DNA of 64,000 bases from Smithellaceae bacterium. Lineage in GTDB: Bacteria > Desulfobacterota > Syntrophia > Syntrophales > Smithellaceae. Position numbers and translations under genes: made by a program. Of the stretch, positions 2,493-55,832 are shown piece by piece; position 1 is the stretch's first letter, and every line of letters begins with the position of its first letter. Under the pieces are notes generated by a model. The model saw nothing but the letters and a program-made list of their open reading frames with translations. It was not told the DNA's origin and did not search any database. The stretch lies in contig JAUYFM010000041.1 in the NCBI GenBank assembly GCA_030690945.1, forward strand, positions 1 through 64,000, given 5' to 3'.

Positions 2493-2514
2493 AGGAAACT
2501 TTCCTTTCGTCACT

Positions 2515-2632
2515 CGTATTACGTGAAGCGTGAAGCGTAGGAACTCGTGAAGCGTATCTCGTATTTCGCGCTTCACGCTTCACGAATTACGCTTCACGGG
2601 TTTTTTCGCTTCACGAGTTACGAATTACTTCC
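2515..2632. repeat. Short GTGAAGCG/CGCTTCAC repeat cluster, copy A
   Basis: Many copies of CGTGAAGCG and its complement CGCTTCACG are mixed with TATCTCGT and GAATTAC units, in both orientations. The cluster fills the spacer between the HD-GYP gene and the response regulator and reaches into the last codons of the regulator. A second cluster lies at 3092-3212. The lack of even spacing and the inverted orientation rule out a CRISPR array. Confidence 0.8.
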
Positions 2633-3067
2633 CGCCGGGGGAGGTTCATTCCAGATCAACCAGTAAAGCCCGAGGTGTTTGATTGCTTCAGCGAATTGAT
2701 CAAAACTAACGGGCTTGCGGACATAACTGTTGCAGCCCAGCTTGTACCCGTTGGTTTTGTCCTTCTCTTCTGCCGATGATGTAAGAATGACCACCGGAAG
2801 CAGGCGGGTGAGCTCATTCTGACGGATGCTTTTCAAGACCTCCAAGCCGTCAATCTTGGGCAGTTTAAGATCCAGCAGGATGACGACGGGCAGTTCCTTC
2901 ACATTCCGCCCGGCATGCACTCCCGTGCCGAACAGGTAATCCAGGGCCTCCACCCCATCTTTCGCAACAACCACCTTGTTTCCGATATTGTTCTTCCTGA
3001 AGGCCCGAATCGTTAATTCCACATCATCAGGATTGTCCTCCACCAGCAAAATGATTTTTTCATCCAT
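2618..3067 (-). CDS. Single-domain response regulator (Rcp1-like)
   Basis: A 149-residue stand-alone receiver. The acidic pocket is in VEDNPDD (about 9-15), the phospho-acceptor is Asp66 in LLDLKLP, Thr96/Ser97 is in ILTSSA, and Lys118 is in VRKPV. There is no output domain. Receivers with this VEDNPDD...FGTG style usually partner phytochrome-type or PAS histidine kinases and relay phosphate or regulate through protein contacts. AGGAGGAT lies just upstream of the start. The gene sits between its likely kinase (3216-5699) and an HD-GYP regulator. The last residues (PPAGSNS) are encoded at the edge of the GTGAAGCG repeat cluster, so the C-terminus may have been altered by repeat insertion. Confidence 0.9.
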   Translation of the reverse strand: MDEKIILLVEDNPDDVELTIRAFRKNNIGNKVVVAKDGVEALDYLFGTGVHAGRNVKELPVVILLDLKLPKIDGLEVLKSIRQNELTRLLPVVILTSSAEEKDKTNGYKLGCNSYVRKPVSFDQFAEAIKHLGLYWLIWNEPPPAGSNS

Positions 3068-3091
3068 TATAAATCCTCCTCTAAGTTCGTA

Positions 3092-3212
3092 TCTCGTGAA
3101 GCGAAAGAACCAGTGAAGCGTGAAACGTGAAGCGTATCTCGTCTTTCACGCTTCACGAGATACGAGATACGAATTCTGCTTCACGCTTCACGAGGTGCGC
3201 TTCACTGGTTTT
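3092..3212. repeat. Short GTGAAGCG/CGCTTCAC repeat cluster, copy B
   Basis: The same units as cluster A (CGTGAAGCG, CGCTTCACG, TATCTCGT, GAGATACGA) fill the spacer between the histidine kinase stop and the response regulator start. An internal inverted repeat, GTGAAGCGTATCTCGT against ACGAGATACG, would fold into a long hairpin. The two clusters bracket the 149-codon regulator gene. Confidence 0.8.
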
Positions 3213-35919: not shown

Positions 35920-36027
35920 CCTTCAACAAGGAAAGAAAAAGGAACGGACGATGTCATTCCCTGTATCCTTGAACCGGAGGAAAATTCAAAGGCGTTCAGA
36001 AAGAATTGCTTGTGCCCTTTAGGGTAG

Positions 36028-36300
36028 GCAAGACTGATTCAGAAGATTTATGAAGTTGATCCTCTCGTCTGTCCCAAATGCAAGGGAGTTATGCGCATCA
36101 TCAGTTTCATCGAAGATCCGTTGGTTATCCGGAACATCCTCAAACATCTGCGAATCTGGCTGATCAGATCAAGACCGCCGCCGAAAATCAATGACCCGCC
36201 AAACCGTGGATACGCCCCTGCTGATCTCCAAATCCAACCACACCCTGACATTATCTACGGCGACCCCGAATATACTTGGGATGATTATATCCAATCATAA
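36028..36300 (+). pseudogene. C-terminal remnant of a transposase (IS91-like)
   Basis: An open stretch with no start reads ARLIQKIYEVDPLVCPKCKG, then VMRIISFIEDPLVIRNILKH and a proline-rich tail ending in DYIQS. The CPKC pair and the ISFIEDP..I..IL..L block match the C-terminal region of Y2/IS91-type transposases that I recall. An in-frame TAG at 36025 ends the frame upstream, and no earlier part of the transposase is nearby. It is a fragment of about 90 codons. Confidence 0.7.
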
Positions 36301-36378
36301 CGCATTGTAAAAAAAGGCGTGACGGAAAGGTCTGTCTGAATTACGGGAAAAATGATCTTACTGGTAAATATAAAGGTC

Positions 36379-36492
36379 ATACCAAGTTGCATCCAAAGGA
36401 TAACGAACCAATGTAGTCCGAACCTTTAGGTTCGTGTGTTCAACGGGTCTAAAGACCCGTACGACTGTTAGCATTTGATGGCGACTTGGTAT
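36379..36492. repeat. Structured repeat, copy 1 (114 bp, inverted ends)
   Basis: It begins ATACCAAGTTGCATCCAAA and ends GGCGACTTGGTAT, so the termini are inverted copies. Inside are two hairpins: CGAACC-TTTA-GGTTCG and CGGGTC-TAAA-GACCCG. A second copy lies at 55653-55783 with most bases the same. It is non-coding and resembles a MITE or REP-type element that would fold as a branched structure. Confidence 0.85.
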
Positions 36493-36722
36493 CACCAGGT
36501 GGGCAGATTGCTCAACAATCAAAATATCTTCAGGATGGCCATTCATGCTGAACACTACATTTTGTGGTCAATTTATTCTTGACATACAAGAACGCGCTTT
36601 CTATACTGCCTTCCAAAGAAAGCAAGTTCTTATCCATTAATCAATTCAACGACCATTACCAGCAGAAGTTTCTTGGAAAGGTTATCATGACGACGCAATA
36701 CGACCTGACAACCGGAGCGATT

Positions 36723-36858
36723 GAATTTGAGCAGCGGCACAACTGCGCCTGAATTGGCCCTCGAATATGTGGTGGCTACGATCGATGTCAAAGAGCAAAA
36801 AATAAAACTTTTCTGGGACAAAACCCAGGTTGATGAGTTCAATTACAAGTTACGTTAA
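36723..36858 (+). pseudogene. Possible transposase/integrase C-terminal remnant
   Basis: A startless frame reads ELALEYVVATIDVKEQKIKL, then FWDKTQVDEFNYKLR and a stop. The pattern (basic strand, short loop, then strand with Phe-Trp) resembles the end of DDE-type integrases such as IS481. No other part is found. It lies directly before a 16-bp direct repeat. The family is uncertain. Confidence 0.4.
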
Positions 36859-55530: not shown

Positions 55531-55652
55531 GCTCTGCCTCACTGGTAACAAGATATTTTGTTTTATATAAAGAAATGCCTTCAATGAATGGAATTATATA
55601 CCATTACTCCAGTTATTTTCCATATATTTCGGCAATCAGGAAAGAAATATTA

Positions 55653-55783
55653 ATACCAAGTCGCATTCAAAGGATAACGAACCAACGTAGTCCGAACCTC
55701 GGGTCACCTTCAGGTGATTAGGTTCGCGTGTTCAACGGGTCTAAAGACCCGAACTACTGTTAACATTTGAATGCAACTTGGTT
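55653..55783. repeat. Structured repeat, copy 2 (131 bp, inverted ends)
   Basis: It begins ATACCAAGTCGCATTCAAA and ends TTTGAATGCAACTTGGT, a 17-bp terminal stem with one mismatch. Inside are CGAACCT...AGGTTCG and CGGGTC-TAAA-GACCCG hairpins. It is 17 bases longer than copy 1 (36379-36492): the extra bases form a small hairpin (TCACC-TTC-GGTGA type) within the first hairpin loop. It lies between cysS and the ctpA promoter region. Confidence 0.88.
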
Positions 55784-55832
55784 TAAGAATACTGTTGTGG
55801 ACTGGACGCGTGAAAATCGGGAGGCATGTTTC

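Follow-up and report, generated by a model that had tools for sequence, protein, structure and literature searches.

Two places in a contig of a Smithellaceae bacterium carry the same branched, palindromic repeat, and the locus raises the question of what kind of element this is and what its nested hairpins are. The analysis started from a window of 64,000 nt, that is, the whole stretch of DNA under study. The original prediction described a 114-bp sequence with inverted ends and two internal hairpins at 36379-36492, with a second copy at 55653-55783, and read it as either a non-autonomous mobile element or a structured RNA gene. Re-reading of the window DNA bears out the sequence, the inverted ends and both hairpins. 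The repeat lies where it was placed, but its exact borders are different, the mobile unit being as given in Table 1. Copy 2 is longer than copy 1 by 18 bp because one of its hairpin loops holds an 18-nt insert. Folding of the + strand as single-stranded DNA against 200 dinucleotide shuffles places copy 1 at 5.9 s.d. and copy 2 at 7.2 s.d. below the shuffles, none of which folds as low in either case. Elsewhere in the window, degenerate direct and inverted repeats on CGTGAAGCG / CGCTTCACG are found at 2508-3212, between two long frames.

Table 1. Positions of the two window copies of the repeat and of their parts.
Feature	Position	Strand	Remark
Copy 1 of the putative composite MITE, 112 bp, TACCAAGT...ACTTGGTA	36380..36491	+	
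Left target-site duplication TCA, copy 1	36377..36379	.	
Right target-site duplication TCA, copy 1	36492..36494	.	
Left REP, copy 1: GTAG head and hairpin CGAACC-TTTA-GGTTCG	36413..36434	+	read from sequence; REP type of RAYT flanks
Right REP, copy 1, inverted: hairpin CGGGTC-TAAA-GACCCG, head CGAC	36444..36465	-	read from sequence
Copy 2 of the putative composite MITE, 130 bp; final base T instead of A	55654..55783	+	
Left target-site duplication TAA, copy 2	55651..55653	.	
Right target-site duplication TAA, copy 2	55784..55786	.	
Left REP, copy 2: GTAG head and hairpin CGAACC...GGTTCG, loop enlarged	55687..55726	+	read from sequence
18-nt hairpin unit U within left REP loop of copy 2	55700..55717	-	
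Right REP, copy 2, inverted: hairpin CGGGTC-TAAA-GACCCG, head CTAC	55736..55757	-	read from sequence

The original prediction had proposed to count copies in the whole genome and to look for target-site duplications, and it was to be given up if only these two copies existed with no flanking signs of insertion. We counted copies by BLAST, with either window copy as query, in the own genome (3.15 Mb, 69 contigs). At E values up to 10, copy 1 gives 63 matches and copy 2 gives 71, all of the same family and including fragments and arm-to-arm matches. Among 27 copies of the composite element examined, 24 are intact and three (L024, L026, L029) show truncation or rearrangement. Of the intact copies, 17 measure 112 bp, six 130 bp and one 148 bp, which corresponds to 112 bp plus zero, one or two 18-bp steps. 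Identical 3-bp flanks are observed directly outside TACC...GGTA in every one of the 24 intact copies. The flank triplet is TNA in 23 of them (TTA, TAA, TGA, TCA); the single TCG target (L016) breaks this rule and counts against the composite explanation proposed below. At the fetched own-genome loci, equal 3-bp flanks are found at 29 of 31 detected end pairs, compared with 27% when the flanks are swapped; for the loci of relatives the figures are 44 of 68 and 22%. The 24 remaining end pairs of the relatives, which are partly false or decayed pairs, also count against the explanation. DNA beside copy 2 is matched at some length in 16 of the 17 genus genomes searched, while G017 matches it solely in short repeat stretches. 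The copy 2 site is empty in the relatives G012 and G007, which have a single TAA and no element, and in G004, which has a single TCA and no element. At the same site, G015 and G008 (L389, L390) show a palindromic repeat that is unrelated to the element, ~100 bp long and containing CGCGAGCTCGC hairpins, and a sequence similar to that repeat is also present in the flank of L141. A simple check for frames of 100 aa or more finds no overlapping ORF at 18 of the 24 copies; the other six (L005, L006, L014, L016, L020, L025) are partly or fully spanned by one. Being short (112-148 bp), non-coding and multicopy, with terminal inverted repeats and a target-site duplication, the branched repeat is a MITE, i.e. 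a small non-coding mobile DNA element. The 24 intact copies with their perfect duplications, together with the unoccupied site in relatives, support the non-autonomous mobile element of the original prediction.

The terminal inverted repeats are imperfect, ~26 bp long, and begin with TACCAAGTYGC. Matches to the element are found in 30 of the 59 genomes searched, own genome included. Among the matches listed, full elements are present in the own genome, G004, G008, G015 and G032, the core without the ends (about positions 30-86) is found for example in G010 and G011, and the ends without the core (positions 1-27) are found as well. The ends with another interior form mostly a class of 121 bp, again with TNA duplications. 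The own genome also has a class of 99 bp, which shares these ends and has duplicated TAA flanks (L088:196-294, L089:265-363). Ends and interiors are interchangeable, the ends bounding several interiors and the core being found without ends. The right half of the 99-bp class is a strong palindrome in itself. In G010 (L156), the REP doublet without MITE ends forms a tandem array with a period of about 104 bp. A scan of a contig collection with the end pattern yields 55 stretches from Syntrophaceae, Smithella, Smithellaceae, Deltaproteobacteria and one Desulfobacterales, the last of which (L299) holds a 112-bp copy with TCA flanks. No match to the 121-bp consensus is found among plasmids and phages.

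The core has the layout GTAG-T-hairpin ... hairpin-..-CTAC, with two REPs in inverted orientation. It shows the GTAG head, the hairpin and the inverted pair of a REP doublet or BIME, with one head of copy 1 being CGAC, 1 base away from CTAC. Four Y1_Tnp frames are found in the own genome, plus a distant fifth (C8:119458, L388). The 176-aa frame L135 scores 98.5 bits against the NCBI model of the REP-associated tyrosine transposase (RAYT), for which the cut-off is 80, and it sits between GTAGTGCGGACATTCATGTCCGC and, inverted, GTAGTGCGGGTTTTTAAACCCGC, which are REPs of the core's type. Homologues of L135 with an identity of at least 47% are present in 9 of 59 genomes, and every homologue locus that was read contains one or more hairpins in which GTAG and a spacer of 0-2 bases are followed by a stem of 6-8 bp with a loop of 4 nt, frequently TTTA or TTCA. 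L135 and its homologues display the further hallmark of REP doublets, a RAYT gene accompanied by REPs of the matching type. The REP pair of the core has the type found on both sides of the L135 RAYT gene in this genome, and this RAYT may have moved it in the past. The fit is incomplete in G032, which has the full element and no close RAYT homologue at E 1e-10, and this counts against the explanation. Another Y1 transposase frame, L136 (G000:C39), carries a second REP type, GTAGGGTGGA...CCACC, on both sides.

The 130- and 148-bp copies correspond to 112 bp with one or two 18-nt hairpins inside the REP loops. This unit, U, was searched as NNNCCTRAAGGNNRCNNG, and its orientation relative to each REP, read from the alignment, is constant in these copies. 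In the own genome, a loose pattern (CCTRAAGGNNRCNNG) has 87 occurrences versus 15 for the reversed control, and a stricter one (CCTRAAGGNNRCNCG) has 72 versus 4. With the stricter pattern, pattern and control counts are 67 and 3 in G015, 58 and 5 in G031, and 49 and 1 in G026; within the same genus they are 6 and 9 in G006 and 0 and 8 in G009, and in genomes of other families the pattern is near background. U is a repeat of its own, with some 70-80 copies in the genome. An exact gain of 18 bp with no duplicated base is observed between paralogous own-genome segments (96% identical over 210 bp) and at a locus common to the own genome and G008. A comparison of the U-rich region L122 with five relatives gives patchy synteny, yet one G008 locus has an empty site. 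With U removed, the flanks pair as a perfect stem of at least 6 bp at 40 of 86 sites, a count that includes homologous sites many times over, versus 3.4% of swapped pairs. After clustering of similar sites, such a stem is found in 8 of 22 clusters versus 2.2% of swapped pairs (permutation mean 0.8, maximum 4 in 2000). By this simple test 14 of the 22 clusters have no 6-bp stem, and one cluster holds 51 of the 86 sites. U prefers hairpin loops, though not all sites show one. Recursive removal shows U nested two to four deep at 22 of 86 sites. The hosts include REPs beside other RAYTs, and an array in G015 (L383) has REPs both with and without U. Among the 86 sites, pair 3-12 is A-T in 59, C-G in 25 and other in 2, pair 1-14 is T-A in 74, C-G in 11 and other in 1, and at pair 2-13 an A/C mismatch is seen in 45; the inner pairs are uninformative because the search pattern fixed them. 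Position 17, which belongs to the unpaired tail and was left free by the pattern, is C in 72 of 86.

How U reaches its hosts can be read in two ways. At close to even odds, U would have arisen at replication, by template switching or by gene conversion from one hairpin to another, and would not be a mobile unit. U has no attached gene and no visible target duplication, many of its hosts are palindromes, and the compensated stem variation at pair 3-12 would also be expected from the copying of diverse templates. Such copying is at odds with the constant length of 18 in the exact comparisons, with the conserved C in the unpaired tail and with the clean junctions by which U enters unrelated hairpins. 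A slightly less likely reading is that U is mobile as a separate hairpin, which enters hairpin loops without duplicating its target; these loops would belong to U itself, to two MITE classes and to REPs of several RAYT groups. If it is mobile, each insertion would create a new target, and nests would therefore build up like Russian dolls. For a hairpin that is gained without duplication and housed in REP loops, the natural suspect would be a RAYT or another Y1 single-strand transposase. U is far smaller than any insertion element known to us. According to the accessible text of PMC2670323, palindromes in the organelles of Volvox carteri are also short hairpins with TAAA or TTTA loops that are inserted into one another. 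However, those belong to algal organelles and have a mean of 50 nt, whereas here a single 18-nt unit is found in bacterial genomes, and, unlike them, U lies mostly in hairpins of known mobile repeats. Extra paired sequence within REP loops is likewise described for the GTAG-3 and GTAG-14 variants in the accessible text of PMC3733652, but these are loop types of single REP families, while U occurs in many unrelated hairpins and in itself. The literature matches listed, with subscription papers mostly outside, mention neither a bacterial hairpin of a fixed 18 nt that nests in itself nor MITEs in Smithella, which is no proof of absence.

For the repeat as a whole, we consider it probable, at roughly 80%, that it is a composite MITE made of outer DNA transposon ends, an inner REP doublet and, in some copies, separate 18-nt units. 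The outer part is a non-autonomous DNA transposon with TNA as its insertion target and a duplication of this triplet, and a DDE transposase, presumed IS5-like because of the TNA rule, would act on it in trans. The inner part is a REP doublet of the BIME/REPIN type, GTAG-hairpin and hairpin-CTAC in inverted orientation. The MITE may have captured the REP doublet, or the doublet may have entered the MITE palindrome, and the composite would then have spread through its outer ends. Some copies carry one or two 18-nt units in the REP loops, which form a separate repeat with no target duplication on gain in the two comparisons; any enzyme behind U is putative. A REPIN-like element moved by RAYT alone on single-stranded DNA, with the outer palindrome as its preferred target or an extension, would also account for the REP doublet in the core and for the presence in the genome of a RAYT whose REP type matches, and REP dimers within palindromes are known from other bacteria (accessible text of PMC3733652). 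This is already disfavoured and improbable: all 24 intact copies have their 3-bp duplications beyond the outer repeats, the same ends and duplications also bound REP-free interiors, and IS200/IS605-type insertion leaves no larger target duplication according to the accessible text of PMC2817692. The structured RNA gene of the original prediction, which would fit the strong predicted folding and the conserved hairpins, is very improbable given that Rfam yields no match at gathering score in the whole window and that each intact copy has its own target duplication, in addition to the unoccupied site and the interchangeable interiors. An integron attC site was considered because of TAAC...GTTA in the stem. 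The R boxes of attC sites are RYYYAAC and GTTRRRY; by eye, GGATAAC and GTTAGCA, GTTAACA or GTTGACT break this motif, and the copies are dispersed with target duplications, so that this candidate was rejected.

A composite MITE would depend on a transposase encoded elsewhere. The original prediction set copy 1 beside two transposase remnants, of which the first persists as a weak ISCR-type match. An open frame at 36028-36300, ~80 bp ahead of copy 1, matches the C-terminal part of the ISCR/IS91-type transposase model NF052416 with E 1.8e-5 and 23.5 bits, far lower than the full-length cut-off of 925. The pieces at 36552-36858 reach no family cut-off (Pfam for both pieces, NCBIfam for the first). 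The ends of the repeat are absent from both regions, and the remnants look incidental. A U-like 18-nt unit lies at 36009-36026 on the - strand, adjoining the ISCR-like remnant, outside the MITE copies and without a clear host hairpin. The search for a RAYT or another transposase sharing the ends, as originally suggested, led to the RAYT link of the core hairpins but to no transposase with these ends. No autonomous transposon or transposase with them was found in the own-genome listing and 40 regions of relatives (draft genomes), nor in the 55 contig-collection stretches, nor around the gene at 27 PF01609 loci in 10 genomes (flanks up to 1.5 kb). Two candidates for the autonomous element were rejected: L289 (1226 bp, TAA/TAA) encloses a 255-aa frame, TatD hydrolase-like by eye, and two MITE-like palindromes, and a 3341-bp end pair in L167 has unequal flanks.

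A comparison with known systems shows which parts are familiar. A TNA target with an exclusive 3-bp repeat characterizes the IS1031 group of IS5 in the accessible text of PMC12016507, and the element shares this rule (23 of 24 TNA, one TCG). The inverted repeat of ISLrh given there begins with GAACCTG, compared with TACCAAG here, a comparison by eye with that single repeat. IS1031-type ends are not shared by the element, as judged from the ISLrh repeat by eye and from the surroundings of the gene at the 27 PF01609 loci. With the BIME or REPIN and its RAYT, as far as described in the accessible text of PMC2817692, the element shares the GTAG head, the hairpins, the inverted pair and a RAYT flanked by the same REP type, but here the REP pair is enclosed by transposon ends with their own TNA duplications. 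REP dimers within palindromes are described for GTAG-15 of A. variabilis and CGTC-1 of H. neapolitanus in the accessible text of PMC3733652, where, like in the element here, GTAG-headed REP dimers lie regularly inside a longer palindrome. Unlike for the element here, that text gives no target duplications, no interior exchange and no 18-nt unit; it also states that REP-free palindromes were not found in the two species, unlike the present case, in which other interiors are found between the ends as well. MITEs and REPs as such are familiar kinds of element, while their combination is unusual, and the self-nesting 18-bp hairpin most of all.

One 112-bp element stacks two transposition systems of different chemistry, the outer one represented by transposon ends and their 3-bp duplications, the inner one by REP hairpins that belong to a single-strand system. 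U in the hairpin loops forms a third layer, smaller still, which can be put to the test through its exact 18-bp steps and through pairs of an empty and a filled site. The spread of a free-standing 18-nt hairpin poses a question that also concerns the nested palindromes of algal organelles.
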